Below are positions 24,290 through 52,419 of a stretch of 61,812 nt of DNA, one piece after another. Numbering within the stretch: position 1 is the first letter of the stretch; every line of letters begins with the position of its first letter. Origin of the DNA: a virus. The notes beneath the pieces were generated by a model. The model was not told the DNA's origin. It searched no databases and was given only the letters and a program-made list of their open reading frames with translations. The stretch spans positions 1-61,812 of the IMG/VR virus record IMGVR_UViG_3300037264_006254; one strand, 5' to 3'. Position numbers and translations under genes: made by a program.

Positions 24290-25690
24290 TCAATCGGTGA
24301 TCATTGTTTCCGGCTCATCAAGCAGCAAGTTGCGCGCCGCCTCGAGACCTTGTTGGTAGCTGTGGTCCTGATTACCATACTCATACCGCCAGGCGCCGAA
24401 CCGACCGCGGCTTAGCACACCTCGCTTTCGAAGCTGAGGTTGAAGCACCGCTAGGGCTTCTACTCGTCCCGGAGTCGGGACAGGGTACGCGTATGGAAGG
24501 TGTTCCGCCCAGAGGCTGAGCGTCTCTGTGTCCCAATTGCAATGCTCCGCGATGTCGAGCTCCACAAGTGACTTGATGCAGCGCTCGAAGAGAACATCGC
24601 GAGGAGGTATGACCTCATTTGCAGTGAACGCGATCTCACACATGTAGCCGACGGCGGGGCCTGTCCCAACGCGGTCGCGATGGCGTGTCATGGGCGCATT
24701 GGCCTTGGCGTATTTGGTGAAGTTCGTGACTCGGTAGAATGGTATCTCATCCCGCGGTTGCGGGTAGTAGGCCCAGCTCCAGTCGGGCAGGCGCGTCTCT
24801 GCGAAACCGACGCCGATGACCATGACCTGATTGTGACGGAGCTTCATGGTCTCGAGAAGATTCTGTCCCTTGTGCAAGTCACTTTGCTCGATGAGTTGAT
24901 TCAGTGGCATCGTGCTGATTAGCTTGTCGTAGGTCGTGGTGCGACCGTCCGCGAAGTAGATGACACGCCGGCCGGTGTCGATACGAACGGTGCGAGCGTC
25001 ATAGATGATGGGGTTTCGCAGCGTCTTCGCGACTCGTCGCCAGATCTCACCCGTGCCACCAGCGGATGGGAAGCTGAACATGGAGTTCGGACCCCACGCC
25101 TTCTCTACCGTGCCGTGTGTGAGGTTTCGCAGCACAGCCTCGAGGCTGGGCTCTGAGACCCGCTCTGCCATCCAGTCACTGCTCATCTGATCGGGTGGGG
25201 TAGCCCATACCTTGGCGTTGTAGGGACCCATGAAGTGTTGATAGGCTCCTCGGCCGAATGCTCTGATTGCCCACGACTGGAAGTCATCGCCCTGCGGGTC
25301 ATCAGCACCGCGCGTAATCATGCCCTTGATGACGTCATACGCCATGTCGGGCGGCATGTCACTTGGGTGGTTCTGAAACGGGTACGGGACCTCACGGTAG
25401 TCAGTCTGTGCTGAATCGCAGACGAGAATGTGACTGGAGCGGTCATGCCGCTCAATCTCATCACCCATGACCTCTTCGAGGACGTGATCGAACTCACCGA
25501 AATGACTGAAGACGACGTGACCGCCCTTGTCCCAGGTGAACCCAGCTGGGTCAACCTTGCTTCCGGCAAGACCGCCGGCGGTGCGGCTCGCCTCGAAGAG
25601 CTGATATTCGGTGTGGCCGAGCTCATCGAGAGCGCGCGCAGCACCGAGGCCGGTTGGTCCCGCACCGAGGATGACGATGCGATTGCTCAC
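24290..25690 (-). CDS. FAD-dependent oxidoreductase, UDP-galactopyranose mutase-like
   Basis: A 466-residue flavoprotein. I place the start at GTG 25690, which overlaps the stop of the upstream gene (GTGA). The dinucleotide-binding VILGAGPTGLGAARAL is at residues 5-20, followed by ExSRTAGGLAG and DKGGHVVFSH, the FAD and substrate pattern shared by UDP-galactopyranose mutases and related amine-oxidase-fold enzymes. A later YDKLISTMPLNQLI segment fits the same family. It is paired with a glycosyltransferase-like gene, so I infer that it makes or isomerises a nucleotide sugar. The substrate is not known; a protoporphyrinogen-oxidase-like role is less likely here. Confidence 0.7.
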   Translation of the reverse strand: MSNRIVILGAGPTGLGAARALDELGHTEYQLFEASRTAGGLAGSKVDPAGFTWDKGGHVVFSHFGEFDHVLEEVMGDEIERHDRSSHILVCDSAQTDYREVPYPFQNHPSDMPPDMAYDVIKGMITRGADDPQGDDFQSWAIRAFGRGAYQHFMGPYNAKVWATPPDQMSSDWMAERVSEPSLEAVLRNLTHGTVEKAWGPNSMFSFPSAGGTGEIWRRVAKTLRNPIIYDARTVRIDTGRRVIYFADGRTTTYDKLISTMPLNQLIEQSDLHKGQNLLETMKLRHNQVMVIGVGFAETRLPDWSWAYYPQPRDEIPFYRVTNFTKYAKANAPMTRHRDRVGTGPAVGYMCEIAFTANEVIPPRDVLFERCIKSLVELDIAEHCNWDTETLSLWAEHLPYAYPVPTPGRVEALAVLQPQLRKRGVLSRGRFGAWRYEYGNQDHSYQQGLEAARNLLLDEPETMITD

Positions 25691-26733
25691 CTTGCAGCAC
25701 GTTTCATCGCGTCGCTGATCGTTTGATCTGCGTGTTCCCGCGACCAATAGTGCTGATAGATCGCGATTTGCTGCTGGCGACCGAGCTCCCAGAGCTCATA
25801 GTCACCGAGCTGCTCGATTTGTTCCGCGGTCTGCTGAAACGCGGGACCGAGCACGCCGGCCTCAGCTGGATCGCCCAGGATCACACTGCCAGTGGCGGCC
25901 GTGTAGTTGTAGCGAATGCGCCACCAGCCCGATCCCATGAGACGCGTGTAGCGAGGTGAAAGCGTGCCCCAGTTTTGTGAGGTTCGGTCGAGAACCTCCT
26001 GCTCAGTAACGCGCTCAGCCTTGAGCTTGCGGGAGCCGAGATACATGACCGGCCACTCGATCCCTTGTTTGTTCACCCACTTGTCCTGGGGTGAAAGCGC
26101 CGCGCAGATCCACTGGCGATTTCTGTCGGAGCTCAGCTCCGGCAGAATCTTGCCGTCGAAGGCATATGGGCTGTAGTCGACGCAGGTAAGCTGCTCCGCA
26201 GTTGCTGGGAGAGCCTCTGTGAACTGGCTGTGGTCACCCCAAGCAAAAGCGGGCAGGATACCGGCCCAGTGCAGTGGCCAGGGGTCTCGGAGGCGTTGAG
26301 CGCCGTACATGAGCTGATCGTGATATAGATCACAAGTCTCATCATCTTCCTTGTGGTAGAGACGAGCCGCATCCGTGCCCTTACCGATGGTCTTGTTGAG
26401 GTACCAAGGATGAGTTCCGAGCGTACGAAGGTGGCTCATTTGGGAACTCATCTGCCAGTCTGATTCATACAGCAAAACCGGAGTGTCGTCCTGCTGAGCG
26501 ACCCACAGCATTCCGAGAACGCCGTGTCTGGTGTTGAAGGAAAGGGCCTGGTTGAGCACGCCGATGATGAGGTCGTAGCCGCTGAGGTCCTCACCGACGC
26601 TGACGCGCCGCTGCTCAAGTGTGCCGATCCGACGGGCCGCGTCGAGAAGGGGCTGATCCATGTTCCAACGAATGGCATCACGCTTGGCATCGCCACACTC
26701 GCGGGCTGACATGCCGGTGTAGAGGATTTTCAC
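25687..26733 (-). CDS. Putative glycosyltransferase (GT-B-like)
   Basis: A 348-residue protein. It begins MKILYTGMSARECGDAKRD, as GT-B enzymes begin with a first Rossmann strand, has DLIIGVLNQAL and DDTPVLLYESDWQ in the N-terminal half, and a C-terminal half with YLGSRK, a helix, SVILGDPAEAGVLGPAF and a long closing helix, the usual GT-B C-domain order. The family is not certain. It overlaps the mutase-like gene by four bases and probably uses its product. In a DNA-replication arm, a DNA-base glycosyltransferase is an attractive reading but unproven. Confidence 0.55.
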   Translation of the reverse strand: MKILYTGMSARECGDAKRDAIRWNMDQPLLDAARRIGTLEQRRVSVGEDLSGYDLIIGVLNQALSFNTRHGVLGMLWVAQQDDTPVLLYESDWQMSSQMSHLRTLGTHPWYLNKTIGKGTDAARLYHKEDDETCDLYHDQLMYGAQRLRDPWPLHWAGILPAFAWGDHSQFTEALPATAEQLTCVDYSPYAFDGKILPELSSDRNRQWICAALSPQDKWVNKQGIEWPVMYLGSRKLKAERVTEQEVLDRTSQNWGTLSPRYTRLMGSGWWRIRYNYTAATGSVILGDPAEAGVLGPAFQQTAEQIEQLGDYELWELGRQQQIAIYQHYWSREHADQTISDAMKRAAR

Positions 26734-27023
26734 TCTGATATCTCAAGAAGCTCGATGACGGTACGACCCCGATCATAGTGAAGCACGGGATCAATGATGT
26801 ATTGGCCCTCGAGATTACATGCCTGCACTTGAAACGACGGCGCCGTGTCAGTGTTCCACGTCGCGGCCTCAAATTCTTCAAGACAAGCGACGAAGTGCTT
26901 TTGCCACTTTACCGGCATCGATTGAAGTAGCGAACGGTTGAGCACGAGGTAGTTAGAGTAGCTGAGACCGAACATGAGGTGAATCGGCTCAGAATCGTTA
27001 GAACAGACGCGACTGACCTTCAT
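26730..27023 (-). CDS. Hypothetical protein, first gene of the sugar cluster
   Basis: A 97-residue protein with no recognised family (YSNYLVLNRSLLQSMPVKWQ ... EEFEAATWNTDT). Its ATG lies six bases after a -10 box (27030-27038), so it is predicted to be translated from a leaderless mRNA. Its stop overlaps the next ATG, making it the first gene of a three-gene unit with the glycosyltransferase-like and mutase-like genes. Confidence 0.6.
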   Translation of the reverse strand: MKVSRVCSNDSEPIHLMFGLSYSNYLVLNRSLLQSMPVKWQKHFVACLEEFEAATWNTDTAPSFQVQACNLEGQYIIDPVLHYDRGRTVIELLEISE

Positions 27024-27029
27024 GCCTAG

Positions 27030-27038
27030 ACTATATCA
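27030..27038 (-). promoter_or_regulatory. Extended -10 promoter, leaderless arrangement
   Basis: TGATATAGT on the minus strand (TG + A + TATAGT), then CTAGGC, then the ATG at 27023. The start codon is six bases from the -10 box, where transcription would begin. No clear -35 hexamer is visible. Confidence 0.55.
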
Positions 27039-27041
27039 GCT

Positions 27042-28427
27042 CTAGAACCTGGGATTTTCGGCCCATTCAACGTACTCTGGGACGCCGGGGCGAGCGTCGA
27101 TCTCTTTGGTGAGCGCGACCGAACGCGAGTCACCCTCAGAGCCATCCTTCTCACTGCGATACCTCTTGAAGTCGTTGCTCACGTCGAGCTTGTACTCCCG
27201 ATCACCGATGAGGTCACCCCGCCACTCACCCGGGCTACCATCGAGGGCACGCTTAATCCACCCACCGACCCAACGACCGCACGGCACAGTCACGGCCTTG
27301 CCATATACGGCTTGACCGCCGCCTTGTGTGTAGGAGTCGAGCTGCCAGGCGTCGGGGAAGCCCATGATGCGAGCGGCCTCACGGTAGGTGAGGGTACGGT
27401 CCTGCCACGGGTGGATGATGCACGTCAGCCCATTGCCGGCGAGCACCCGCCCGATCTTCTCACGCTTCCACCGTTGCGGCTGGTAGACACCGCCCTGAAA
27501 GTCGGTTCGGAGACAGGTAGCCTGAGCCTTCGCGTCCCAGCCCTCTGGGAACTGACCTCCGGTCGCGTCATAGTGACGCTTGATCACATCGACCATCTGT
27601 TGGCCGGGAGCCCACTCTCCGGTAGAGAGCGCGGCGGCTACCCTGCTGAAATGCCCCAGCTCGCGGCCGGTCTTATCACCGTAGGTCATCAGGCCATCCA
27701 CCTCGCCGCTTTTGTTACGGTAGGGTGCGGCCCAAGAGGTAGCTGATCGTGCGTAAGCCAGTGGACCCCACTCCTCGATCGGCAGATCAAGATCGCCGAT
27801 CGCCATCTCGATCGTCGGGACACCATGCTTGAGAAGTGGTGTTTCGATACCAAACGGAACCTTGCTTAGCACGAGGAAGTACCGCCGACGCACTGAGCAA
27901 CCACCCACGGACGCGGCGTTGTGAAACGTGTGTGTCAGTGTGTACTGCTCGCCGGTGAGCTCCTCGAGGTGATTCCGAAGTGCGAGCATGAGACTGTGAC
28001 CGCCCTTTGGTGTGTCTTTTCCAGCTCCCTGCACTGACTCCATTACCACGATCGTCGGGCCCAGACCGTCGTTCACACGGGCGGCAAGTTCCATTGTGAT
28101 CCACATGCAGGAGTTAACGGGAGCGTCGGCGCCGCGATAGTCCTTGCGCCCTCCACCTGCGTTTCCAGCACGGACGGACATCAAGCTGAACCCGGAACAC
28201 GGCGGAAGTGAGGCAACGACGCTGATGTCGTTCAATGGCTCCCACTCTGCTGGCATTCCGATTTGATAGTCCCACTTCTTACCGAGTAGTTCGCGGTTCG
28301 CGTCGCACTGAGCGATTCCGAAACCACCCTTTTGTTCATATCTCCGTTGAAGCTCCAATCCAGATTGAACGAGACCGAGATCAAGACCTCCGCCAAAAGT
28401 CTGGCAACCCACGTACTTGTACTTCAT
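27042..28427 (-). CDS. DNA (cytosine-5) methyltransferase
   Basis: A 461-residue C5-cytosine methyltransferase. Motif I is TFGGGLDLG (10-18), motif IV is PPCSGFS with the catalytic Cys77, motif VI is diverged (VVMESVQ in place of ENV), motif VIII is SVRRRYF, and motifs IX-X are GFPDAW and GGQAVYGKAVTVPCGRWVGGW. The start at ATG 28427 overlaps the upstream stop (TGATG); an ATG nine bases earlier is also possible. It methylates cytosine in a specific sequence, either for protection against host restriction or to supply 5-methylcytosine for further modification. No cognate endonuclease gene is seen. Confidence 0.88.
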   Translation of the reverse strand: MKYKYVGCQTFGGGLDLGLVQSGLELQRRYEQKGGFGIAQCDANRELLGKKWDYQIGMPAEWEPLNDISVVASLPPCSGFSLMSVRAGNAGGGRKDYRGADAPVNSCMWITMELAARVNDGLGPTIVVMESVQGAGKDTPKGGHSLMLALRNHLEELTGEQYTLTHTFHNAASVGGCSVRRRYFLVLSKVPFGIETPLLKHGVPTIEMAIGDLDLPIEEWGPLAYARSATSWAAPYRNKSGEVDGLMTYGDKTGRELGHFSRVAAALSTGEWAPGQQMVDVIKRHYDATGGQFPEGWDAKAQATCLRTDFQGGVYQPQRWKREKIGRVLAGNGLTCIIHPWQDRTLTYREAARIMGFPDAWQLDSYTQGGGQAVYGKAVTVPCGRWVGGWIKRALDGSPGEWRGDLIGDREYKLDVSNDFKRYRSEKDGSEGDSRSVALTKEIDARPGVPEYVEWAENPRF

Positions 28428-28849
28428 CAGTCCCATCCCTCAGATTCAGGTTCATCAGTTGCATTGCCGTTCTCGTCTTTGTTGGTTTCGGCTTCATAAA
28501 GACCGGCTTGGCGCGAACGGTTGACCTGTTGCTTCGCCGCATAGCGAGCTGATAGCTCATCATCGCTGAGACCAAGTGCGCAGGCGAGATTAGCGACGAA
28601 ATGAAGCACGTCCACCAACTCCTGCACTGCACGATCACGGTGGATGACTTTACCTCGATCCGCGACCCACGGCTTCCAGCTCGGTACCTCCGCGAGAAAC
28701 TCACCCAGCTCAGCCACCAACGCGGTTACGTTCCACGTGATGTAGTCAGCTAGCTCCACATCCGGAAGCAGGTCAACATTCACGTCGAATGCCTCACGCT
28801 GAAGGCGACCGGTCTCCTCAAGCCAAGAGCCGAACATCGGCGCGGTCAT
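28427..28849 (-). CDS. dUTPase/dCTPase-like phosphohydrolase (all-alpha, MazG type)
   Basis: A 140-residue all-helical protein with the metal-binding ELGEF and ELVDVLHF motifs (E-x-x-E ... E-x-x-D pattern) and the AAKQQVNRSRQAG segment of dimeric phage dUTPases. Such enzymes hydrolyse dUTP, or dCTP in T4-like phages, to the monophosphate and so keep unwanted nucleotides out of phage DNA. Substrate cannot be told from sequence. In this genome, with a hydroxymethylase-like gene, dCTP is a real candidate. Confidence 0.75.
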   Translation of the reverse strand: MTAPMFGSWLEETGRLQREAFDVNVDLLPDVELADYITWNVTALVAELGEFLAEVPSWKPWVADRGKVIHRDRAVQELVDVLHFVANLACALGLSDDELSARYAAKQQVNRSRQAGLYEAETNKDENGNATDEPESEGWD

Positions 28850-29517
28850 TAGAACGGCGGCTCAGGCGCGACACCGGGCTGGATGGTAGCCGGCGGAGCC
28901 GGCGGAGCCGGCGCGGCCGGTGGGACCGGCACCTCAGCAACCGGCGCCGCGGGTGTCGGGGTCGGGGCGGTAGGAGCAGGCGGGGCCGCCGGTGGGGCGG
29001 GCGGGGCGGGGGCCACCGGCGGCACCGGCGCCTGCTGAGGAGTTGGAACGGGTGGGGGTGGAACCGCACCGACTTGTGCCGGAGGTATCGAGCTGAACGC
29101 GGCAGCAGGCTGCACATCATCCACATCGACAGTCGGCTTGTTCTTGTACGAACCGATGCTGGTGGTGAAGACCGCTGTGCGATCGGTGAGCGCCTGCGCT
29201 ACGGACTCGATCGCCGGCTGGGTATTGAACCAGTCGCCGGTGAGACCGAATGCAGCCATGTGACGGAAAAAGATCGCCATTGAGTCAGCGCTCTCCGGAC
29301 TGATGACGAAGTTGTTCCAGATGGTCTTCTTCGCGTGAGGACCTTCCTCGATCTTCGCGCGGACCTTGATCATCTGCTTCTGCCCGTTGCTGCAAGGCTT
29401 GACTTCTGCTTTGGCGATGCGAACGAGATAGTCACCCGCCGGGACGGGAGTGGTATCGGTCGGGATGTCCGACTTCTCCGCCTCCGCCTGCAGCTGTGCC
29501 CAGTTGAACTCACTCAT
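28849..29517 (-). CDS. SSB-like protein with Pro/Ala-rich tail (DUF669-type)
   Basis: A 222-residue protein. Residues 1-135 resemble the DUF669-type phage proteins (PVPAGDYLVRIAKAEVKP ... QMIKVRAKIEEGPHAKKTIWNNFVIS) that serve as single-stranded DNA binding proteins. Residues 136-222 are a disordered Pro/Ala tail ending EPPF, like the terminal Phe of SSB C-terminal tips that recruit partner proteins. Neighbours are a Sak4-like ATPase and a Cas4-like nuclease, a usual recombination set. Confidence 0.65.
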   Translation of the reverse strand: MSEFNWAQLQAEAEKSDIPTDTTPVPAGDYLVRIAKAEVKPCSNGQKQMIKVRAKIEEGPHAKKTIWNNFVISPESADSMAIFFRHMAAFGLTGDWFNTQPAIESVAQALTDRTAVFTTSIGSYKNKPTVDVDDVQPAAAFSSIPPAQVGAVPPPPVPTPQQAPVPPVAPAPPAPPAAPPAPTAPTPTPAAPVAEVPVPPAAPAPPAPPATIQPGVAPEPPF

Positions 29518-29528
29518 GAATAAACCTT

Positions 29529-30272
29529 TCAGGTGTTGGCGTCGATGACCGCGAGCATCTGCTCGAGATCTGGGTTCTGAATCGTCGGACCGTAGTGTAC
29601 CGTCAATGCGTTGGTACGGTCTTTGGCGTCTAGATCTCCAAGTGGAGCGATGAGCATCTGCCGGTTTAGGTTCCCATCCGGGTCCGTGGCGACGTAGAGG
29701 TACCCCACCACGTCGATAAAACCGGGCAGGGTCAACGCGAGCTGTCCCTTGACAAGGGGGCGAAACTTTCCATCACGGAAGTGAGTCAGGGCGATGAGCA
29801 TCACACACTCAAGCGGCCTGGTCGGGTGGTAGAGCAGGTCGCGCAGTTTGCGAATCTGATCTTCCATGACCCGGAGGACCGTGCCCCAGTCCTGCTGATT
29901 GGGCTGCTCGATGCCACTGGTCTGGTCGATGGCTCGCTTCTGCAGCTCAGTCAAGGAGTCGACGACGACGCTGCGGAACGGGTGCTGACCCGAATTGAGC
30001 CAGTTGTACGCCAGTGACATGGTGTTGAAGTCCCGAGTAAGGATAATGCACGTTACCCACTCGACTTCCTCAATCTCACCGGTCGGGGTCTTACGACCAA
30101 AGCCCGGTTGCGGTGGGGCCTCCATATCGGGATTCCAATAGACCTTCTGACCCGGGATGAACCGGCTGCCTCCCTCACAGTCGAGGATGAGACGATACGC
30201 CGGTGCGGTCGCGCCTAGCCAGGACTTTCCAGTTCCCGGCTCGCCGTGTACACAGATAGAAACACTTCTCAC
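29529..30272 (-). CDS. Sak4-like RecA-type ATPase
   Basis: A 247-residue single-domain ATPase starting at GTG 30272. Walker A is GEPGTGKS (10-17), Walker B is FRSVVVDSLTEL, and QKRAIDQTSG follows. This is the AAA_24/Sak4 pattern of phage single-strand annealing or RecA-like recombinases, which usually work with an SSB-like protein encoded beside them, as here. Confidence 0.78.
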   Translation of the reverse strand: MRSVSICVHGEPGTGKSWLGATAPAYRLILDCEGGSRFIPGQKVYWNPDMEAPPQPGFGRKTPTGEIEEVEWVTCIILTRDFNTMSLAYNWLNSGQHPFRSVVVDSLTELQKRAIDQTSGIEQPNQQDWGTVLRVMEDQIRKLRDLLYHPTRPLECVMLIALTHFRDGKFRPLVKGQLALTLPGFIDVVGYLYVATDPDGNLNRQMLIAPLGDLDAKDRTNALTVHYGPTIQNPDLEQMLAVIDANT

Positions 30273-31268
30273 TCAGGCCTCCCCGCCTTGTTCCGTGGAC
30301 ACAGTATCACGTTCTGGAGACACCGGCTCGCGGTGGTGCTCATGCGGATCACACTCCTCAAAGCTCGTCATGAGGAGGTGTTCCGGGTCCGCGTGCGGGT
30401 CGTCGAACAATGGGCAGACGTGGAAGAAGTCACAGCTCCACGTGCAGTCCGGGGCCGGCGTTGGGTACGCGACCGCGGTGATCCCTTTCTCATTCTCGTC
30501 GAGACACCGACGCTCGAACTCAAGCATGTCCATGATCTCGCAGTAGAGCCGATTCCAGAACTGACGAAGCTCCGCGTCGCTGACGTAGACGTCGTAGTCG
30601 CGGAAGAAGGGCGGCTTGGCACGCGCGGTACGCTTGCTCTTCTTGAGCATGCGATACCTCTGAAGCCGAACCGGCTCGCCGCCAAGTACGCGCCGGATGA
30701 GCGCATACATGCGAAACTGCTCATCCATCGGCAGCGTCTTCAACGGCTCGTCGAGAGACCCGACCGTCTTGAAGTCGACGAAACCCTCAGCCGACTCACC
30801 GCCGGTCATCGCAGCACTGGCAAGCATACCTCGAAGGTCGAGCTTGCCGATGAGCTTGACGCTGGGGACTGGGCTCTCACACTCAATGTGCTCCTCCACG
30901 CCGAGAATCTGAAGACCCACATCACTGCCTTCATCCTCGAGCCATTGGAAGTAGCCCTCGACCATGGCGACCGCCATGTCGTGTTCTTTGGTAATTTCCT
31001 TCCGCGTCTCATCGAAGTCCTCTGGCGTTACAGCCAGCTCATCGTCGCGAATCTGCTCGAGACACGCGATCGCGTCCTCGAGGCCTGCTGATTCACCTAG
31101 AAGGATCTTCTCGTAGTAGCATTGCAATGCGGCATGGACGCGGGTGCCGAGCTGGCGCGCGCCGGTGAACTCCAGGCGCTTCTTCCGCAGCCGTCGCACA
31201 TATGCAAGCCAGTACTTCCGCCGACACCGCTTCCACGTCTTGATCTGAGAGTTTGAGACCTCGTTCAC
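30273..31268 (-). CDS. PD-(D/E)XK nuclease, Cas4/RecB-like with Fe-S cysteines
   Basis: A 331-residue nuclease. The start is GTG 31268, overlapping the upstream TGA (GTGA); the longer open frame upstream is not needed. It opens with SNSQIKTWKRCRRKYWLAYV, the RecB-type N-terminal helix with the first Cys, has LIGKLDLRG and EGFVDFKT as the metal-binding D ... DxK core, and ends with C-x3-C-x5-C (DCTWSCDFFHVCP). These would bind a 4Fe-4S cluster as in Cas4 and AddB. Likely a 5'-end processing exonuclease for recombination. Confidence 0.82.
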   Translation of the reverse strand: MNEVSNSQIKTWKRCRRKYWLAYVRRLRKKRLEFTGARQLGTRVHAALQCYYEKILLGESAGLEDAIACLEQIRDDELAVTPEDFDETRKEITKEHDMAVAMVEGYFQWLEDEGSDVGLQILGVEEHIECESPVPSVKLIGKLDLRGMLASAAMTGGESAEGFVDFKTVGSLDEPLKTLPMDEQFRMYALIRRVLGGEPVRLQRYRMLKKSKRTARAKPPFFRDYDVYVSDAELRQFWNRLYCEIMDMLEFERRCLDENEKGITAVAYPTPAPDCTWSCDFFHVCPLFDDPHADPEHLLMTSFEECDPHEHHREPVSPERDTVSTEQGGEA

Positions 31269-31501
31269 GGTGCGTTTCGCAGGTCGTAGATCGAGTCCCA
31301 CCCGCCCACAGGCGTGCCGCCAAACTTCTCCCAGATGTCGGAACGAAAAGCGACATATTGAACCTCGATATCGCCGACACGCGCCGCCGCCTGATAGAGC
31401 TGATCCCAACTGACACCGTGCTCACGGCCCCAACGAATCAAGTCTTCATCCTCACCGATGACCGCCACGTGCGAACGGGTGAAACCCGGTACCTCTTCCA
31501 T
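31265..31501 (-). CDS. Small hypothetical protein
   Basis: A 78-residue protein preceded by GGGAGG four bases before its ATG. It has HVAVIGEDEDLIRWGREHGVSWDQL, a short helix-turn-helix-like stretch, but no family I can name. Overlaps the Cas4-like gene by four bases. Confidence 0.55.
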   Translation of the reverse strand: MEEVPGFTRSHVAVIGEDEDLIRWGREHGVSWDQLYQAAARVGDIEVQYVAFRSDIWEKFGGTPVGGWDSIYDLRNAP

Positions 31502-34043: not shown

Positions 34044-36086
34044 CACTTGGAGGGTCAGCTGTTTCAACTTCAACGGCGTGGGGCCTGAGATCTCACAGGT
34101 GTCGTTGTTGCAGAAGAGCTCACCGGCCGCATCCTCACCGTGGCGGTAGACGTCGGTCAAGCGCAGCCTCTCGAGGCCCTCCGTGGTGCTCTCCCAGGTC
34201 TCTTCCGTGATCGACTCATACGGCATCTGCGCGTACGCCCCACCCTCTAGGATCGGCAGGAAGGACATCGACTTGAGCTGGCCGTCGAAGCTTCGCAGGA
34301 GCGGGCCGAGCTGATTCTTCTCGTCCTCACGGAATGTGAAGGTGGCTGAGACCTGGTTGTCCGCCCAGTGGCGTTGCATCAACGCGGCGAGGGCGACCTT
34401 CTCCCAGACCGATACCTCTTTGCTGGAGCGGCCGGCCGGGCCACGAGTCGGGAAGGACACGACGACCGTGTTGTCTGGGTCCATGACGTCGGGCTCGATG
34501 TGGTATCCCGCTGCCTTGATGGCGCTGAGCACGAGCTCGTCCTGGCGAAAGCGCTGGCGACGAATGTAGGTCGACTCCTCCGGCCAGTGAACGCCCGGCC
34601 ACACGCCTGCCAAGAGAGAAACCGTCCCCGACGGTTTCACACTCGTCGTCTTGATCGACTCACGAACACCGAGCCACTCCGAGTAGCGCCGGTCGCGCTC
34701 CTGCACGGCGTCGTATCCCACATCCATCCACTCCCGCAGCTCCGTCCACCCGTTTCGCTCAGCGAACAGTGCGACGCCGGAAGCGGAGCAGCCGATCCGG
34801 CGGTTGCGCGCCATGACCTCATTTGTCTCCGGCCAATGCGTCGGCAGCAGGGTCACTGCCTTCGCGTAGAGGTATGCGTGCTTCAAGGTGGCGACGTAGT
34901 CGTTCAGGTTCTCACAGTTGGTCGGGAACGTCTCGACGAGGGTGCAACACTCATCCGCCTCGAGCGACTGCTCGCCACACGGATTCGTTCCGACGACGCG
35001 GTGGTCTACCCCGGTCGGGGCGTCGCCGAGTCTGCCGTGAGAGCGCGCCAGGTCAAGGAAGATGAGACCAGGCTCACCGTTCAGGGCGATGGACTCGATG
35101 AGGTGATCGTGATCAGTGCCGACGGCCGTGATGACGGAGTTGTTGGACAGGAACGCCCACCCATCCGGGCCGCAGCGGTCCGGGTTGACCTCTGGGTCCT
35201 TGAGGTGGAGGAACTCCTCGTTGTCGACCGGGCCGAGTGCGATCTCTGCTGATCTGCGAACGTTGCCGGCGACGACGCACTTGCCGATCAGGTTCATGAT
35301 GTCCGTGATGTCCGTGACCGTCAGAGTCTCGCCGGCGCGATGCTCAAACAATGAGGTGATCGACTCGTGGAGGCGCTTCAGCGGGCCGGGACCGGAGGCG
35401 GTGCCGCCGAAGCCTCGGATCGGCTCGCCGGCCGGCCGAATGTCACCGTAGTCGAAGATCGGAAGACCGTGCCCATTCGTGAGATATGCGCGAAGCAGCT
35501 GGTCGACACTGGCGGTCCAACCCTCGCGTGAGTCCGCGATGACCGTGGTCTCGAACTGGCGTACCGGCTTTTGGATCATGAGCTTTCCCGCGCCATCCAC
35601 GTCAAAGCCGACACCGATGCCGAGCATGCTCATCTCCATCAGCCTGGTGAAGGGCCGGGTGGGCACGCGCGGGCCAAGGTGTGCGGTGCTCACGAACGCA
35701 CAGTTCTGCAGCGCGGCGCTACCGTTCTTGCTGATGAACTCCGTGCCCATCATCCAAAGGCCGCGACCCGGTGGAAGCCACTTGAAGTTGAACATGCGGT
35801 CGAACGCGTCCTCCGCGCTTCGCGCCGCCTTCACGCCATTCCACGGCGTTCGATTCTTCGCGCAGTGGTCCTTCAGGATGGAGTAGTAGCCCTCGACCAC
35901 GCGACGGCAGGTCTCATGCCACCGCTCCTTGGTTCCGTTGGCCTTGAGTCGCGAGTACTTGGCGAGGTATGTGAGCTCACCGAGTGTGTTGCCGCCGCCG
36001 GTTGGGAAGCCCCAATGAACGGCCTTGCGTGCGTATCCCTGGACGAAGTCGTCGGACAGATTGAACGAGAGATGCTCAGCAGGCAC
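34041..36086 (-). CDS. Class II (B12-dependent) ribonucleoside-triphosphate reductase
   Basis: A 681-residue monomeric adenosylcobalamin-dependent ribonucleotide reductase. Visible motifs are QNCAFVST (N-terminal redox Cys), CVVAGNVRRSAEI, NPCGEQSLE with the catalytic Cys near residue 369, VKPSGTVSLL, and a C-terminal CNNDTCEIS Cys pair that is re-reduced by thioredoxin. It makes dNTPs from NTPs without oxygen limits but requires host cobalamin. Starts at GTG 36086 with AAGAGGATCC upstream. No separate small subunit is expected or seen. Confidence 0.93.
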   Translation of the reverse strand: MPAEHLSFNLSDDFVQGYARKAVHWGFPTGGGNTLGELTYLAKYSRLKANGTKERWHETCRRVVEGYYSILKDHCAKNRTPWNGVKAARSAEDAFDRMFNFKWLPPGRGLWMMGTEFISKNGSAALQNCAFVSTAHLGPRVPTRPFTRLMEMSMLGIGVGFDVDGAGKLMIQKPVRQFETTVIADSREGWTASVDQLLRAYLTNGHGLPIFDYGDIRPAGEPIRGFGGTASGPGPLKRLHESITSLFEHRAGETLTVTDITDIMNLIGKCVVAGNVRRSAEIALGPVDNEEFLHLKDPEVNPDRCGPDGWAFLSNNSVITAVGTDHDHLIESIALNGEPGLIFLDLARSHGRLGDAPTGVDHRVVGTNPCGEQSLEADECCTLVETFPTNCENLNDYVATLKHAYLYAKAVTLLPTHWPETNEVMARNRRIGCSASGVALFAERNGWTELREWMDVGYDAVQERDRRYSEWLGVRESIKTTSVKPSGTVSLLAGVWPGVHWPEESTYIRRQRFRQDELVLSAIKAAGYHIEPDVMDPDNTVVVSFPTRGPAGRSSKEVSVWEKVALAALMQRHWADNQVSATFTFREDEKNQLGPLLRSFDGQLKSMSFLPILEGGAYAQMPYESITEETWESTTEGLERLRLTDVYRHGEDAAGELFCNNDTCEISGPTPLKLKQLTLQV

Positions 36087-36125
36087 GGATCCTCTTAGGA
36101 TTTTGGGGCGGGAAAGGTTCTGATC

Positions 36126-36707
36126 TTACAGCAGCTGTGTCTGGGCAATCCCGCACGTTGCGAAGAACTCGGCAGTTCGTTGAGGTTCCCGGTCTCGGTC
36201 AGCCTCAGTAATGCGATACACGACGCGAATGAGCCCACTGTTGGAGAGATTCTTCGCGCACCCGAAACACGGGCAGCTGGTTACGTACGCCGTTCCGCCG
36301 ATGAGACACTTATGATCAGCGAACACCAAGGCGTTGACCTCAGAGTGAACAGACACACAATCATCATACGAAAGTGAGCCGCCGGTCTTTGCTCGCTCAC
36401 AGAAGGTATCGCAGGTCTCATTTGCGTCGAGCAATCGCTTGGCGCCGATTCGTTCGTACTCAACACGAAAACCGCCCGGCGGTCCGTTATAGCCGGCGGC
36501 AATGAGCTGATTGTCCACGGACACGAGCACACAACCTGCTCGGCGCCGCACACAGCGACTACGAAGCGCGATGGTGTCGGCCACGGCCATCCACGTCTCA
36601 TCCCAAGTCGGTCTTAGCGACACTTGAGCCGGCTCTTGCTCGGTTCCGTCAGGGTTCATGTGGTCGTGGTGCATAGGAAGTCGTCTTACAGAATCTTCGT
36701 CGGCCAT
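36126..36707 (-). CDS. dCMP deaminase
   Basis: A 193-residue zinc deaminase with HSEVNAL and SCPCFGCAKNL, the H-x-E ... P-C-x2-C site of the dCMP deaminase family, plus the usual RSRCVRRRAGCVLV and GYNGPPGG segments. Converts dCMP to dUMP for thymidylate synthesis. Oddity: residues 12-24 read MHHDHMNPDGTEQ, nearly the same as a stretch in the unrelated methyltransferase at 48,097-48,789. The start at ATG 36707 has GGGAGCAGCGACG upstream. Confidence 0.9.
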   Translation of the reverse strand: MADEDSVRRLPMHHDHMNPDGTEQEPAQVSLRPTWDETWMAVADTIALRSRCVRRRAGCVLVSVDNQLIAAGYNGPPGGFRVEYERIGAKRLLDANETCDTFCERAKTGGSLSYDDCVSVHSEVNALVFADHKCLIGGTAYVTSCPCFGCAKNLSNSGLIRVVYRITEADRDREPQRTAEFFATCGIAQTQLL

Positions 36708-36862
36708 CGTCGCTGCTCCCAGAGTGAGGTGCGTACGCGTAGAGAGGTGAACGTCCGTTCGATCTTGATCAGGCCCTGCACCAGTGTGGCACGAAGGAAC
36801 CTACGCTGCCAGGGCGTGTGAATGACTTGTGTGACCTTATCTGACTCATTCGCTACATCCAT
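36686..36862 (-). CDS. Small basic hypothetical protein
   Basis: A 58-residue basic protein (MDVANESDKVTQVIHTPWQR ... RRWPTKIL) that fills the gap between the resolvase and the deaminase. ATG 36862 lies inside the end of the resolvase gene, and the 3' end overlaps the deaminase start by about 20 bases. Could be DNA or RNA binding; function unknown. Confidence 0.45.
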   Translation of the reverse strand: MDVANESDKVTQVIHTPWQRRFLRATLVQGLIKIERTFTSLRVRTSLWEQRRWPTKIL

Positions 36863-37316
36863 GATCCCCCAATCGAATGAGCTTATCCTTCGCCAGGCGA
36901 TAGCAAAGGTGTCGCATTGCATCGTTCGCGTGACCCTTGCCCTTGGTATGGTATCCCAACGTCTTCAGACGTGAGTCGGTAAACAGATTCATCACGTCGG
37001 ACGGCGCCTGCAGCGACATTGGCTCAACACCGTGAATTCGCGCGAGGTATCGGCAGACGCCAATCACCCCCAGAGCTTCCAATGATCCCGCGGTTGATGA
37101 CTTGATTGTCCGCATGGAGATGGTGAACCTCTCCACGATGAGAATCGTTAGCGGACCCCAAGCCTCGAGTGTGTTGTTCAACCAGTCTTCGAAGGACTCA
37201 GACTTCGCTTGATCCGCGTTCACACGGTGGACGACACCATTACTTGTCTCCGCCCACGCGAAGCCGGTGTGAGGGCCGGGGTCAACCGCGACGTAGAGTT
37301 GATTCACTTGCTCCAC
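36846..37316 (-). CDS. RuvC-like Holliday junction resolvase
   Basis: A 156-residue RNase H-fold protein. YVAVDPGPHTGFAWA (first Asp), ILIVERF (Glu), and GHANDAMRHLCY (last Asp) provide the D-E-D metal triad of RuvC-type resolvases. Resolves branched recombination or replication DNA before packaging. Its 5' end overlaps the DNA polymerase gene. Confidence 0.8.
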   Translation of the reverse strand: MEQVNQLYVAVDPGPHTGFAWAETSNGVVHRVNADQAKSESFEDWLNNTLEAWGPLTILIVERFTISMRTIKSSTAGSLEALGVIGVCRYLARIHGVEPMSLQAPSDVMNLFTDSRLKTLGYHTKGKGHANDAMRHLCYRLAKDKLIRLGDHGCSE

Positions 37317-39040
37317 CGGTCCATCGGCTGCGACGCGTCCACCGCGAGCGGAACCTTGAAGTTGGTGCGGTCTTCCATCGCGGGGATCGCGCGGGCACGC
37401 ATTTCGAAAGCCTCATCAGTCGGTACCTCCATGATAACTTCGTCGTGAACCGGCAAGCGCAGGGTCGGACCGAGCTCCACAAGATCAAGGTTGACCAATG
37501 CGCGCTTGAAGACGTCGGCAGCCGTGGCCTGGATCAGGAAGTTGACGCCGGCGTACAGCCGATCGTTGTCCACCACGAGCCGTCGGCCGAACGGCGTGCG
37601 AACCCACGCCTTGCCCTCTTCCTTCAGGCGACCGCGCATGACCTCCTCGAGATCATGCTGAAACTTGGTGGCGCCGGGAAACATGATCTCATACTTTTCA
37701 TAGAACGCCTTGCCCTCTGCCTCACTGATGCCGGCGGTCTGTGCGAACTTCCGCGACCCACCGCCGAACACACGGCAGAAGTTGGCGCTCTTCGTTACCT
37801 GATACTGAGCCCTCGAGGGCTCAGCGTCGCCGAGATCGTACACCTCTTGTGCGACGATCGTGTGAAGACTGTAGCCCGCCCGAATCCGTTCGATCATCTG
37901 CTCTTCATTGGCGAAGTGCGCGAACAGCCGCATCTCCACCTGCTCGAAGTCGATGCTGAGGAGCTTGTGATCGTCGCGCGGGATGAACGCGTTGCGAACG
38001 ACGTCACCGCGCGGGAGAGTCTGCAGCGCCGGTTCCGTGATCGACATGCGACCGGTTCGAGCGCCGACCTGGCGGATCATCATGTGAAGCACGTCACCGT
38101 CACGAAGCTCCAGGAAGTTCTTGAAGTACGTGTTCGCGATCTTCTGGGCCTTCCGTGTGTTGAGAACGGCGGCGGCGAGAGGGTGTTCGAGAGCCTCTAG
38201 CACCTCCATATCCAGGCGCAACGCACCGCCCGGAGTTCGGCTGGTGAGCTCCACCCCGTCCCGTGTCAACCGGCCGGTCACGTCCTTGTTGGAGCCGGGA
38301 TGGACGCCGTACTCTGACTGGCACCAGTGCTGCATCTGTTCGTGATATGCAATCAGGCGCTCGTACTTGGTCTCGCAGTACTCCACATCAATACGCGCGC
38401 CGGTCATCTCCATGCCGAACAGGACAGAGGAGGTGGCACGTTCGAGGTCGTACATGCTCTCCATGCCGAGCTCACGCACCTGAGGTATCATCAACTCCCA
38501 GAGCTGAGCCGAGAGGATCGCGTCAAGCGCACCGTACGCCCAATAGGCAGGCAACTCGATCGGGACGGTCTTCCACGTCCATTTGTTCTTGTTCATCGCC
38601 TCTTGCAGCATCGCCTCACCGGCGACTGCGTTCGGGTCGATGAGTCGGGCTGCCAGGTTCTTCAGGCCGAGTCGCTCATTCGGTGCGAGCAGGTGGGCCA
38701 GGAGCATGGTGTCGTGAACTTGGTCGGTACCGAGTGTGATGCCGGTGTACTGCGCGAGGTATCGCTGGTCGAACCTGACGTTGTGACCGACGATCGGTCC
38801 CTCATAGTCGCGCAAACACTCCTTGACCAGGCCCTTCCAATCGTCGAAGGGAATTGACCAACCCGTCTTGGCGTCGCCGAACTGCACGAGGCGAAGATTT
38901 TCTCTCCACCAAAAAAGCCCTTCTGTTTCGGTATCAAACCCCAAAACTGGACGTCGCTCTCCCAACCATCTCTTCATCATCATTGCGTCCTCAACACACG
39001 TCACAAGATGGACTTTGACATGCTCAAGTGGACTACCCAC
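37304..39040 (-). CDS. Family A DNA polymerase with 3'-5' exonuclease
   Basis: A 578-residue DNA polymerase. The exonuclease domain begins VLGFDTETEGL (about 32-42) with HNVRFDQRYL and YGALDAI. Polymerase motif A is SIDFEQVEMRLFAHF (about 362), motif B RAQYQVTKSANFCRVFGGG (about 413) and motif C LPVHDEVIMEV (about 530). No 5'-nuclease domain, as usual for phage PolA. In motif B the O-helix residue that is Phe or Tyr and governs dideoxy discrimination is Phe, and the later Tyr (Tyr766 of E. coli) is also Phe. Confidence 0.95.
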   Translation of the reverse strand: MGSPLEHVKVHLVTCVEDAMMMKRWLGERRPVLGFDTETEGLFWWRENLRLVQFGDAKTGWSIPFDDWKGLVKECLRDYEGPIVGHNVRFDQRYLAQYTGITLGTDQVHDTMLLAHLLAPNERLGLKNLAARLIDPNAVAGEAMLQEAMNKNKWTWKTVPIELPAYWAYGALDAILSAQLWELMIPQVRELGMESMYDLERATSSVLFGMEMTGARIDVEYCETKYERLIAYHEQMQHWCQSEYGVHPGSNKDVTGRLTRDGVELTSRTPGGALRLDMEVLEALEHPLAAAVLNTRKAQKIANTYFKNFLELRDGDVLHMMIRQVGARTGRMSITEPALQTLPRGDVVRNAFIPRDDHKLLSIDFEQVEMRLFAHFANEEQMIERIRAGYSLHTIVAQEVYDLGDAEPSRAQYQVTKSANFCRVFGGGSRKFAQTAGISEAEGKAFYEKYEIMFPGATKFQHDLEEVMRGRLKEEGKAWVRTPFGRRLVVDNDRLYAGVNFLIQATAADVFKRALVNLDLVELGPTLRLPVHDEVIMEVPTDEAFEMRARAIPAMEDRTNFKVPLAVDASQPMDRWSK

Positions 39041-40328
39041 GCTTCTTGATCAACTTCCGCACGGCATTGATTGCTTCTTCCGGTTCGTCGAGGCGCTGCT
39101 TGATGACCTCGAGAATGTCCGCCGGTGTGATCTTACCGCCCCGCAGGGCAGGCACTTCCGTGGGAAGCTGCGCCAACTCGAGCAGTTTGACGAGCTGGTC
39201 GTCGGTGAGGTATCCGATCTCCTCGACCACGTCAGCGCGACCGGGACGGATGAGTGCGGCGTCGAGAACGCTGATGTCGTTCGTGGTCATGATCGTGATG
39301 AGACCGTGTGGTGTGACGATCCCGTCGAGCGCGTTGAGCAGCGCGGACAGACTGATGCCCCGCGCCTTGTCATCACGAGTCTTGGCGCCGTGCACCACAT
39401 CGATGTCCTCGAGGAGAAGCAGACCCTTCGCCGGCACAGCGTTGACGATGTCGATGAGGTTTGCGTCACTGTCAAGTGAGCTAAGCGAGACGTAGTGAAC
39501 GTCGAGAGCAAAGTGGGTGCCGAGGGCGCGAGCCAGGCTGGTCTTACCGGTGCCGGGCGGCCCATGAAAGAGATACCCACGGTGCCAGGGAAGTCCGAGC
39601 ACGTCGTACCGCGCCTCATTATCGAAGAAATGTTGAAGGTCAGCGACGAGCCGTTCCTTCTGTTCTTCCGGGAGGACAACCGTCTTGAGATTTCGCTTCG
39701 GCAGGTCGGATCGTGTCTGCCAATCGCCCCATCGTGTCGTCATGAGCAGGCGTGGTTCGCGCTTCTTGACGAGCGTCAGGCTGAGTCGTTCGAGCTCACT
39801 GAGCACAGAGTCGCGGCCAGCAACGTCACGCGCGGTGAAGGTGATGATCTCTTCCTTGCGGGTGAGTGCAGTATTGGCGTCAGTTCGTGTAGTCTTGTCC
39901 TCTTGGTTGAGATTGATCTTGACCTTGTGGCCGGAGATGCTCACCGTCTGTTCCTTCGAGCCATCGAAGAAGACATGAAGAGACGACGGCGGCGGCTCTG
40001 GGCTGTCAAGCCACTCGGAAAGCGATGTTGTGCGGCTGCGGTAGCGAACTGCGATCGAGCGAAGCTTGCTCTCCGGCACCTGCTTCATGAGCCACTCACG
40101 CACAACGTCATAGAGCTCATCGTCGCCGGACACGGACACGACGAACTCAGTTTCGGTGCGACGCTGATCCGCGAACTGCTTGTAGGTCTTCCACGCTCCC
40201 AGCGCGACGAAGTACGCCGTGGCTCCGCGACGAACGTGCTTTGAGTACTTGCCATCGATTGCGGCGGAGATGAGAGAGTGAGGGAAGAAACTGACCGGGT
40301 TGCTCGACCCTTCGAGCGGGTTGCTCAC
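39033..40328 (-). CDS. BCS1-like AAA+ ATPase
   Basis: A 431-residue AAA protein. Residues about 45-225 resemble the BCS1 N-terminal domain (YFVALGAWKTYKQFADQR ... ITFTARDVAGRDSVLSEL). The AAA domain has HRGYLFHGPPGTGKTS (about 248), Walker B LLLLEDID, sensor TTND and the arginine-finger region ALIRPGR. BCS1 relatives in bacteria and phages are little studied. Here the gene lies between a thymidylate-synthase-family enzyme and the polymerase with 4-8 base overlaps, so it is probably expressed with replication proteins. No membrane segment is evident. Confidence 0.85.
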   Translation of the reverse strand: MSNPLEGSSNPVSFFPHSLISAAIDGKYSKHVRRGATAYFVALGAWKTYKQFADQRRTETEFVVSVSGDDELYDVVREWLMKQVPESKLRSIAVRYRSRTTSLSEWLDSPEPPPSSLHVFFDGSKEQTVSISGHKVKINLNQEDKTTRTDANTALTRKEEIITFTARDVAGRDSVLSELERLSLTLVKKREPRLLMTTRWGDWQTRSDLPKRNLKTVVLPEEQKERLVADLQHFFDNEARYDVLGLPWHRGYLFHGPPGTGKTSLARALGTHFALDVHYVSLSSLDSDANLIDIVNAVPAKGLLLLEDIDVVHGAKTRDDKARGISLSALLNALDGIVTPHGLITIMTTNDISVLDAALIRPGRADVVEEIGYLTDDQLVKLLELAQLPTEVPALRGGKITPADILEVIKQRLDEPEEAINAVRKLIKKRG

Positions 40329-41212
40329 TCATCCTCCTGATTGACCCAATACTTTCGAAGCTTGTCGAGGTACCAGGACTCAGCGTGATTGAACGAACCT
40401 GGCTTCACGCCCTTGACCTTTCGGCCGGCGGCGACGTCGAGAACGTAGCGAGCACGCTCTGCGATCTCAGCCCACGTCATTCCCGGCGTGCCGATACCTC
40501 CCGGCAGTTCCGGTGGTCGTTCCGGGATGTTGGTCGGCTTTAGGTAGTCGAGGATGCCGACGTCGCGCTGGTAGAGGTGAAAGGACGTGGCGTGGTGGTG
40601 GTACGGGCCGCACGGAACGCGAAGCGCGTTGGCCATCGACATCTGCAGCTGGGTGAACTGAAAGAAGTCATAGCTCACGCCCCAGATCACATCGTTGGAG
40701 CGCATGTGGGTGTGGAGCTCGAGCTTCTGATCGCGGAGCATGAACTGAAGATAGATCGTGCACGGCAGGTCGCGCGGTGCAACCGGGACTGATCGGTCGT
40801 AGTTGGCGTCCCAAATGTTGGCCACCGCCTGCCGCGTTGTTTCGTCAGTGAGGAGAAGTGCCTCGATGTCATTGAGCTGCCAGCGCAGGCGTGGGCCGTA
40901 GGCACCGTGAAGCGCGGAGCCGTCCATGAAGTCCTTGAATCGCGGCTGCACCCGCTTCATCAAGTCAGGGTCGGTGACCCCACCGATGAGCTGAAGCGCT
41001 TCGGCAGCGGCGATGCCGAGATTGAGCTTGCGACCGACGCCAACGGGAAGCGAGTCGATGGGATCGTTGAGGGTGATTGACACATCTCGAAGTTCATAAG
41101 TCACCTCTCCCCTACACTTCACAGGCTTGCCTTCTTCTCTTACCCACTGGACAAGAGAGGGATAGTCATCACGAGCATTTTCCATAATGATGTCATGTCT
41201 ACCGAAGCGCAC
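40325..41212 (-). CDS. Thymidylate-synthase-family enzyme, dCMP hydroxymethylase-like
   Basis: A 295-residue homologue of thymidylate synthase. Catalytic Cys151 (DLPCTIYLQF), Arg171-Ser172, Asp182, and His212-x-Tyr214 stand at exactly the same spacings from the Cys as Cys146, Arg166-Ser167, Asn177, His207 and Tyr209 of E. coli ThyA. The Asn that selects dUMP is Asp here, as in T4 dCMP hydroxymethylase. I infer hydroxymethylation of dCMP. The start codon is GTG 41212 with GGGA nine bases upstream; ATG 41185 is an alternative. The C-terminal part is longer and unlike ThyA. Confidence 0.78.
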   Translation of the reverse strand: MRFGRHDIIMENARDDYPSLVQWVREEGKPVKCRGEVTYELRDVSITLNDPIDSLPVGVGRKLNLGIAAAEALQLIGGVTDPDLMKRVQPRFKDFMDGSALHGAYGPRLRWQLNDIEALLLTDETTRQAVANIWDANYDRSVPVAPRDLPCTIYLQFMLRDQKLELHTHMRSNDVIWGVSYDFFQFTQLQMSMANALRVPCGPYHHHATSFHLYQRDVGILDYLKPTNIPERPPELPGGIGTPGMTWAEIAERARYVLDVAAGRKVKGVKPGSFNHAESWYLDKLRKYWVNQEDE

Positions 41213-41296
41213 GTTTGCGTTCCCATCTTTTCACTTGGGCAAAGGCGCTCATATTTTGCGCTTGCCGTTTGATGTCGGTTGTGTGTGAGTCTGATC

Positions 41297-42250
41297 TCAC
41301 ATGCTCTCCAAGAGTCGTGTGTAATCAGCGATGGCGTCATGGTGAAATCGACGCCAGTATTGAGGGTGCGCGATGGCCGATGCGAAGACGCCGGTCTTCT
41401 TTGTCGCAACCTGCGCCTTCTTGCCCAGTGCGACGATGCGTGGGACGTGGTACATGCTGAACGCGCTGATGAGCGCGCGAAGGTCAACCGGTGACCCATC
41501 GCGCTCGAACGCGTTGACGATGCCGACGTTCCAAGGGTTGTACCGCCGCATGCCGAGAACGGCGCGAATGAGGTACGAGCCGCTCGAGTTCGCGTACGGT
41601 GGGAACGCCGCGAGATGCTGTGGGTACGTCGGATCATTAACGTTCGGTGCATCTCCGATGAGGAGCACGTCTGGAGCATGTGGGCCGACGTAGGATCGGG
41701 TGATGGACAGCGCATCCTCAGTCAGAGCTTGACGACGACGGGCAGCGGCGATCACAGCGGTGGGTGTCACCTGCCTTTCCTTAGGCAGAGTGGTATCGAT
41801 GGTGTGAGTGAGTGAGGGAGCGTTGGCCGCGATGTCAAGGAACATTTTCCGAGCCCGACCAACATCCTCACCTTGGAGATAGTCTTCCCCGCGGGAGTCG
41901 TAGCGGGTAAGCAGCTCCTCCAGCGAGGCAGTCACATGGATGGTGATTCCGCCGCGTGAGCGGAAGAACTGCTCGAGGTGCCACCATGACTCGGGCGAGA
42001 GACCGGGATCATTGCGATAGAGCTGTGGGTAGACACACTCACCCCAGTGTAGACGATCCGTGATGACGTGATCGAATGGCGGCTTCTGAGCGTCATCGAT
42101 TGTGAGTTCATACTCAGCAAGTGGGTGCTGTTGCGGTTGCGAAAAGTGAAGTGGCAGCACCATGTCGCGGTGTGACTCGAGCCAGGCGCGAAGCACACCT
42201 GCAGCGGTGCTCTTGCCCGCCAAGTCTACGCCCTCAAAGGCTATCAGCAT
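41297..42250 (-). CDS. P-loop deoxynucleotide kinase fused to a UDG-superfamily-like domain
   Basis: A 317-residue fusion. Residues 1-190 are a thymidylate-kinase-type P-loop kinase (IAFEGVDLAGKSTAAG, VITDRLHWGECVY, and a lid region with RYDSRGEDYLQ). Residues 195-317 read like the uracil-DNA-glycosylase fold: DVLLIGDAPN for GEAPG, GSYLIRAVLG, GIVNAFE, RIVALGKKA for the ALG motif, and HPQYWRR for HPS. The start is ATG 42250 with GGAGAGG upstream, overlapping the end of the previous gene. It probably phosphorylates a normal or modified dNMP. The role of the UDG-like part is unknown. Confidence 0.72.
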   Translation of the reverse strand: MLIAFEGVDLAGKSTAAGVLRAWLESHRDMVLPLHFSQPQQHPLAEYELTIDDAQKPPFDHVITDRLHWGECVYPQLYRNDPGLSPESWWHLEQFFRSRGGITIHVTASLEELLTRYDSRGEDYLQGEDVGRARKMFLDIAANAPSLTHTIDTTLPKERQVTPTAVIAAARRRQALTEDALSITRSYVGPHAPDVLLIGDAPNVNDPTYPQHLAAFPPYANSSGSYLIRAVLGMRRYNPWNVGIVNAFERDGSPVDLRALISAFSMYHVPRIVALGKKAQVATKKTGVFASAIAHPQYWRRFHHDAIADYTRLLESM

Positions 42251-52418: not shown

Positions 52419-52419
52419 G

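Follow-up and report, generated by a model that had tools for sequence, protein, structure and literature searches.

The leftward arm of the viral genome considered here raises the question of whether its genes together form a pathway that replaces cytosine by a sugar-bearing base and, if so, which sugar is attached. The analyzed window is the IMG/VR virus record IMGVR_UViG_3300037264_006254 over its full 61,812 bases, which may be incomplete as a genome, and an earlier note, made from the sequence alone, had proposed a T4-like cytosine hypermodification pathway for positions 24290-42250. The genes named there for a thymidylate synthase (TS)-family enzyme, a kinase, a dUTPase_2-family enzyme, a C5-cytosine methyltransferase (C5-MTase), a UDP-galactopyranose mutase (UGM) and a glycosyltransferase (GT) all proved to be real and correctly placed. 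A megablast search of the region against 50,697 phage records yielded no nucleotide match, and relatives were therefore looked for at the protein level. By protein similarity and gene order, these are phages of actinobacteria, namely DSL-LC01, Gordonia phages and the Micrococcus phage Kurnik, in agreement with the former description of the genome as actinophage-type. On computational grounds, T4-like cytosine hydroxymethylation is well supported, and it appears moderately probable that a furanose donor, with galactofuranose (Galf) as the likeliest sugar, serves to glycosylate the 5-hydroxymethylcytosine (5hmC) DNA. Sequence supports the assignment to enzyme families, the catalytic and the specificity residues, the order of the genes and their recurrence; Galf is the sugar that we infer, a furanosyl decoration being a good and testable proposal.

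The TS homologue is encoded at 40325..41212 on the minus strand (PF00303, 7e-12; PHROG 5131, 2e-42), and its closest solved structure is that of the CMP 5-hydroxymethylase MilA (1e-17), not that of a thymidylate synthase. In the T4 dCMP 5-hydroxymethylase (HMase), Asp179 selects cytosine and Asp145, three residues before the catalytic Cys, activates water for hydroxymethylation (PMC6400193). Alignment places Asp182 of the window protein in the column of T4 Asp179 and TS Asn177, so that the Asp of dCMP hydroxymethylases to which the earlier note had pointed sits at the correct position, and the segment Asp148-Leu-Pro-Cys151 provides an acidic residue at -3 from the catalytic Cys, equivalent to T4 Asp145. 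At the Asp182 column, Asn is found in the dUMP-type enzymes (SPO1, ViI, phiW-14, Montesquieu) and in RB69 td; among the 105 collected homologues, 99 carry Asp at the 179 column, the six exceptions being exactly the Asn-type reference enzymes. In line with this, MetaGPA observed that Asp177 of TS homologues is enriched where phage DNA contains modified cytosine (PMC8670742). Enzymes of the RB69 and Rhizobium types possess Glu at -3 and the motif MRSQN, whereas the window protein agrees with T4 in showing Asp at -3 and MRSND; judged by these residues, it is of the T4/MilA type. Ser172 and Arg127 are located at the columns of MilA Ala176 and Lys133 and represent the residues of deoxy preference, Ser/Arg versus Ala/Lys distinguishing deoxy from ribo preference (PMC5175136). 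By its sequence the protein would work like a dCMP HMase, as a member of the TS superfamily that departs from T4 at the Ser94 column, and hydroxymethylation of dCMP is regarded as highly probable. In GMA2 (NC_070761), the annotated thymidylate synthase Orf44 is located at 44075-44773, while the sole PF00303 match lies elsewhere (73871-74263) and belongs to a D-type hydroxymethylase.

The T4-like precursor route proposed before is upheld by the residue signatures, by synteny in other phages and by the neighboring precursor enzymes. Assignment of the thymidylate-kinase-like dNMP kinase (41297..42292, minus strand) is confirmed by a PF02223 match (6e-8) and a confident AlphaFold model; its gene precedes the HMase gene in DSL-LC01 and most IMG/VR relatives, and its proposed substrate is hydroxymethyl-dCMP (hmdCMP), corresponding to the role of T4 gp1. 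The kinase possesses an extra C-terminal domain (residues ~200-331) that is common to most relatives. Foldseek searches with the kinase model returned only kinase-domain matches among the best 50 and none for this C-terminal domain, whose GDAPN and HPQ motifs we presume to reflect a uracil-DNA-glycosylase-type fold. The MazG/dUTPase-type phosphohydrolase (28427..28849, minus strand) matches the dUTPase_2 family of all-alpha NTP pyrophosphohydrolases (PF08761, 7e-12), for which a match is also present in T4. It is a candidate dCTPase-dUTPase in the role of T4 gp56 and may, as suggested previously, act as dCTPase rather than as dUTPase. A dCMP deaminase (36126..36707, minus strand; PF00383, PHROG 174) can be added to the genes listed earlier, since it belongs to the set as in T4. 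The cassette also contains a family A DNA polymerase (37304..39040, minus strand), the profile of which matches the cassette polymerase of the relatives.

Two adjacent genes might account for a sugar. The first encodes an FAD-dependent UGM of the eukaryotic (fungal) type (24290..25690, minus strand) that matches the A. fumigatus UGM with an E-value of 1e-85 over 457 residues. All 14 checked active-site residues are conserved, the residue list being one that we take over from the A. fumigatus enzyme. What had been described as UGM-like is, by homology and active site, a bona fide UGM of fungal type, predicted to convert UDP-galactopyranose (UDP-Galp) to UDP-galactofuranose (UDP-Galf). Its start is probably GTG at 25690 (466 aa) and not TTG at 25747, so that it overlaps the stop codon of the GT gene in GTGA. 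A search of bacterial genomes with this UGM yielded one relative, 37% identical and from the metagenome-assembled genome of an uncultured cyanobacterium, which gives no hint to the host.

The second gene (25687..26733, minus strand) encodes the GT, a proposed 5hmC-DNA furanosyltransferase, for which no Pfam family matched and which belongs to PHROG 14998 (1e-10), a group with no assigned function. Structure prediction of the sugar enzymes, a check suggested by the earlier note, was run for the GT: an AlphaFold model based on 41 sequences showed two domains (pLDDT 78), and Foldseek matched it to GT-B enzymes, SenB followed by a phage GT, at E 1e-3 or better, which bears out a GT-B-like fold at moderate confidence. 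Known phage families were rejected as its identity. Neither the T4 alpha-GT (PF11440) nor the beta-GT (PF09198) matched in the window, T4 itself being positive as control, and the GT yielded no Pfam match to the TAGT family (PF20691). Profile comparison showed no similarity to T4 beta-GT and also ruled out a relationship with RB69 ORF003c and with the Galf-transferase-like protein of VPE25. Next to the GT gene lies a gene for a 97-aa protein (26730..27023, minus strand), which matches only residues 143-202 of the 233-aa PHROG 3527 and is possibly a truncated gene, followed by a diverged C5-MTase (27042..28436, minus strand). Since the genes overlap (UGM and GT by 4 bases, GT and the 97-aa gene by 4, C5-MTase and dUTPase by 10, dUTPase and the next gene by 1) and only a single gap of 18 bases occurs, the UGM, the GT, the 97-aa gene, the C5-MTase and the dUTPase form one compact unit.

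Whether these genes act together can be judged from their occurrence elsewhere, which comprises four contexts. The first are actinophage-type contigs with a MilA-like HMase, in which the order is kinase, HMase, deaminase, PolA-type polymerase, ~5 kb of replication genes, GT, an optional UGM, a GT paralogue, dUTPase and C5-MTase. The HMase is present in all six GT-centered IMG/VR contigs that extend far enough upstream, and a UGM directly follows the GT in 7 of the 16 GT-centered IMG/VR loci. There it is of the bacterial Glf type as in DSL-LC01 (PF03275), ~25% identical to part of the fungal-type UGM of the window, so that the occupation of the same slot by both types is best read as non-orthologous replacement. 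In the second context, a Glf gene adjoins the GT homologue in T4-like Aeromonas phages (phage 25, phiAS4, Aes508 and others) and in Erwinia phage FBB1 (GT profile E-values of 1e-40 and 1e-43). Phage 25 and FBB1 contain a T4-type HMase with the D/D signature; alpha-GT and beta-GT were not found in these two phages, T4 being positive as control. How such gp42-positive, glucosyltransferase-negative T4-like phages modify hydroxymethylcytosine was raised as an open question by Petrov and colleagues in 2010 (PMC2993671). The third context is phage C48C1, in which a Tet_JBP gene is located directly before GT and UGM (Glf) and no TS homologue was found; among 19 IMG/VR relatives, which are close kin and not independent, 17 contain TET upstream and 17 UGM downstream, the exceptions lying at contig ends. 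The fourth is Morganella phage Rgz1, whose GT homologue is flanked by genes for an arabinose-5-phosphate isomerase and a nucleotidyltransferase, both RB69-like, and is thus placed inside an RB69-type arabinose cassette, the proposed arabinosyltransferase of RB69, ORF003c, being a different protein.

Of 17 GT-bearing phage records obtained in the first search, 16 possess a TS homologue and the 17th, C48C1, possesses TET. The naive chance of this co-occurrence is ~1e-15 even at ten lineages (860 TS-positive records of the 50,697), a figure that shared descent makes a guide only. Since the gene order recurs in named phages as well as in IMG/VR contigs, the gene set is more than chance. Moreover, as the GT-UGM pair recurs across actinophages, T4-like phages and TET operons, it tracks the source of the hydroxymethyl base and not one phage lineage. 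As the GT accompanies makers of hydroxymethyl bases of three unrelated kinds, it would most simply act on the base in DNA, its inferred acceptor; we consider attachment of a sugar to DNA probable. Mutases of unrelated origin sit beside the GT, so that the UGM would most simply supply its donor, which makes a furanose the somewhat favored form of the sugar and, given the known reaction of UGM, Galf the furanose. The joint action of the sugar genes, previously a conjecture, is thus supported by the same pair beside three different sources, at the level of gene association and with the chemistry deduced.

Other phages show further combinations. The cultured phage Kurnik (L160, OR756649) has the same cassette order with a T4-type HMase and holds other glycosyltransferases in the GT slot, which lies between SSB and MazG; both HMase and sugar module look exchangeable. 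Phages of Rhizobium, Agrobacterium and Ochrobactrum (L182, L183 and L184) combine a bacterial-type UGM with an RB69-type TS homologue (Glu at -3, MRSQN) and are candidates for galactofuranosyl-hydroxycytosine.

Several observations weigh against the proposed pathway. In the TS homologue, the T4 site Ser94-x-Tyr96 corresponds to Gly103-Ala-Tyr105, with neither Ser nor Thr at the first position; since the hydroxymethylases of ViI and phiW-14 have Gly and that of SPO1 has Ala at this column, a Ser two residues before the active-site Tyr is not a necessary feature. The confidence of the GT model is moderate, as noted, and its best PDB match is weak (TM ~0.5). A UGM is missing from many relatives that share the HMase and the GT, namely the Gordonia phages and most IMG/VR loci; here the host could supply the furanose donor, or the sugar could differ. 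The host of the Gordonia phages forms Galf as a constituent of its wall. A window-type GT is absent from some of the nearest HMase relatives (e.g., L030). Furthermore, the C5-MTase would be left without its normal substrate if all cytosine were replaced; it may shield DNA that is at an early stage or only partly modified, or it may have a novel function. No C5-MTase was found in C48C1 and, for that reason, the oxygenase of this phage may act on T in a base-J-like manner.

The alternative that survives best, although clearly less probable than Galf, keeps the precursor route and changes the sugar: the UGM would make another furanose donor, such as UDP-arabinofuranose, or the GT would use a pyranose donor with the UGM as accessory. 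The majority of GT-bearing relatives without UGM, the position of the Rgz1 homologue inside an arabinose cassette and the fact that we know of no sugar-specificity residues for this GT family speak for it; the intact UGM active site and the repeated pairing of unrelated UGM types with the GT, which suggests that the mutase product is needed, speak for Galf. An improbable alternative is that the HMase modifies DNA while GT and UGM act on virion proteins, the tail fibre or the galactan of the host cell wall. A GT4 glycosyltransferase gene (7191..8294, plus strand) adjoins a large collagen-like tail fibre gene (2759..6808, plus strand), so that virion glycosylation is possible in this phage. Actinobacterial walls can contain Galf. 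In addition, the authors describing DSL-LC01 proposed a cell-wall role for its UGM (PMC10611076). However, the GT-UGM pair lies in the replication operon away from the fibre, recurs in Gram-negative T4-like phages with a T4-type HMase and directly behind TET/JBP oxygenases, and has its slot filled by other glycosyltransferases in Kurnik, all of which speaks against this alternative.

Slightly less probable still is that the TS homologue makes another base, i.e., 5-methyl-dCMP (Xp12 type), 5-hydroxy-dCMP (RB69/Mosigvirus type) or 5-hydroxymethyl-dUMP (SPO1 type). All of these are reactions of the TS superfamily (PMC5175136; PMC13390438), formation of 5-hydroxy-dCMP by a Mosigvirus enzyme having been described in a 2026 paper (PMC13390438). 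SPO1-type 5-hydroxymethyluracil was rejected by the Asn rule, dUMP enzymes carrying Asn and not Asp, and RB69-type hydroxycytosine by Glu at -3 and MRSQN, in contrast to Asp and MRSND in the window and T4. An Asp at -3 activates water in hydroxymethylation, whereas canonical TS has Leu there, and a methyl group would leave the GT without an acceptor. A second, post-replicative route, in which the C5-MTase methylates cytosine and a 2-oxoglutarate (2OG)-Fe(II) oxygenase oxidizes it to 5hmC, is very improbable: both genes are present, TET systems are known from phages and Tet_JBP precedes the same GT-UGM pair in C48C1, but the window oxygenase belongs to PF13640, no Tet_JBP domain (PF12851) matched in the window with C48C1 positive as control, a homologue of this oxygenase, a weak one, occurs in a single relative (L145), and a dCMP HMase makes methylation and oxidation unnecessary.

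The second route of the earlier note is thus not supported; its oxygenase does exist at 43498..44151 on the minus strand, outside the interval for which it was given and of another family than Tet_JBP. In the L145 record (G043), weak similarity to Tet_JBP that stays below the cut-off of the family occurs several times within 50688-57449, on a contig which also encodes a dCMP HMase. The gene of the putative C5-MTase is present as well (PF00145, 2e-12), with PPCSG kept and motif VI changed from ENV to ESV. A PF00145 gene occurs in 20 of 24 cassette records. Its subfamily (the window, L002, L004, L005 and L144-L158) sits beside the dUTPase in phages with a dCMP HMase; among named phages it is found in the Gordonia phages, DSL-LC01 and Kurnik only. 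The catalytic Glu is retained, as is PPC apart from one member with APC, and motif VI is E[SC]V in all 15 aligned members.

In comparison with known systems, the cassette resembles the T4 pathway (gp42, gp56, gp1, alpha- and beta-GT) in the HMase signature residues, the dUTPase_2 family, the dNMP kinase, a GT acting after synthesis and the location in the replication region. It differs in that the structure-sequence search places MilA, and not T4 gp42, nearer to its HMase, its GT lies outside the alpha- and beta-GT families and a UGM of the phage itself provides for the donor. MilA, from the mildiomycin pathway of Streptomyces and the nearest relative of solved structure, shares with the window enzyme the Asp for cytosine and the Asp at -3; the deoxynucleotide-type Ser/Arg of the window replaces its Ala176/Lys133. 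The arabinosyl-hydroxycytosine pathway of RB69 and Mosigvirus likewise combines phage-encoded sugar-donor synthesis, a GT and a TS-superfamily enzyme, and a member of the window GT family is held by the Rgz1 cassette; however, the RB69 homologue, with the deviating residues described above, makes 5-hydroxy-dCMP, ORF003c lies outside the window GT family, and no UGM was seen in the arabinose cassette region. TET/JBP hypermodification with TAGTs also places a GT beside a maker of hydroxymethyl bases, and TET-GT-UGM operons share the window GT family, yet TAGTs have a GT-A fold (PMC13216743) in contrast to the GT-B-like window GT, and the window uses a dCMP HMase and not TET. For the Enterococcus phages VPE25 and VFW, which have a D-type TS homologue, glycosylated 5hmC was shown experimentally in 2016; a second GT is 28% identical to a galactofuranosyltransferase, and the authors suggested Galf and further DNA modification (PMC4999554). 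These phages differ in possessing a T4-like beta-GT, in a Galf-transferase-like protein that is unrelated to the window GT and in that no UGM match was found in them. The 5-carbamoyloxymethylcytosine phages of MetaGPA resemble the window in their Asp177-type TS homologues linked to modified cytosine, with a dCMP deaminase nearby (PMC8670742), and differ in that the acceptor bears a carbamoyl group and not a sugar.

Taken as a pre-replicative cytosine hypermodification system, the leftward arm would operate as follows. The dUTPase_2-family enzyme would lower dCTP and yield dCMP for the HMase, the phage kinase together with host enzymes would raise hmdCMP to hmdCTP, and the PolA-type polymerase of the phage would put hmdCTP into DNA. 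Once the DNA has been synthesized, its hydroxymethyl groups would be glycosylated by the GT-B-like transferase, for which the neighboring UGM would provide the furanose nucleotide sugar by turning UDP-Galp into UDP-Galf. The product would be 5-(galactofuranosyloxymethyl)cytosine or a close furanosyl relative, and it would serve to shield the phage DNA against restriction and further defences directed at DNA.

The sugars known to decorate phage cytosine are glucose and arabinose, and the modifications described include glucosyl-5hmC, arabinosyl-hydroxycytosine, carbamoyl-hydroxymethylcytosine and TAGT disaccharides. To our knowledge, galactose in its furanose form has not been reported on DNA, and no report of Galf on DNA or of a UGM in a DNA-modification pathway was found in the open-licence PMC literature. 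A broader reading, for which we see about even chances, is that PHROG 14998 represents an additional GT-B family that glycosylates phage DNA and is specific for furanoses. Its members are paired with unrelated UGMs (fungal type and two bacterial lineages) and with hydroxymethyl-base makers of unrelated kinds (MilA-like HMase, T4-type HMase and TET/JBP); on this reading, galactofuranosylated bases would be a widespread, undescribed DNA modification. If this holds, it would also fill in the sugar step that is missing in T4-like Aeromonas phages with gp42 and without a known glucosyltransferase, phage 25 among them. Among actinophage genes with a thymidylate synthase annotation, many are, as our comparison indicates, cytosine hydroxymethylases. 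A furanosyl decoration, probably with Galf, would add to the known modifications one for which a dedicated enzyme makes the donor and would, for the phages that carry it, constitute a new target of, or a new shield against, restriction, glycosylase and CRISPR defences.

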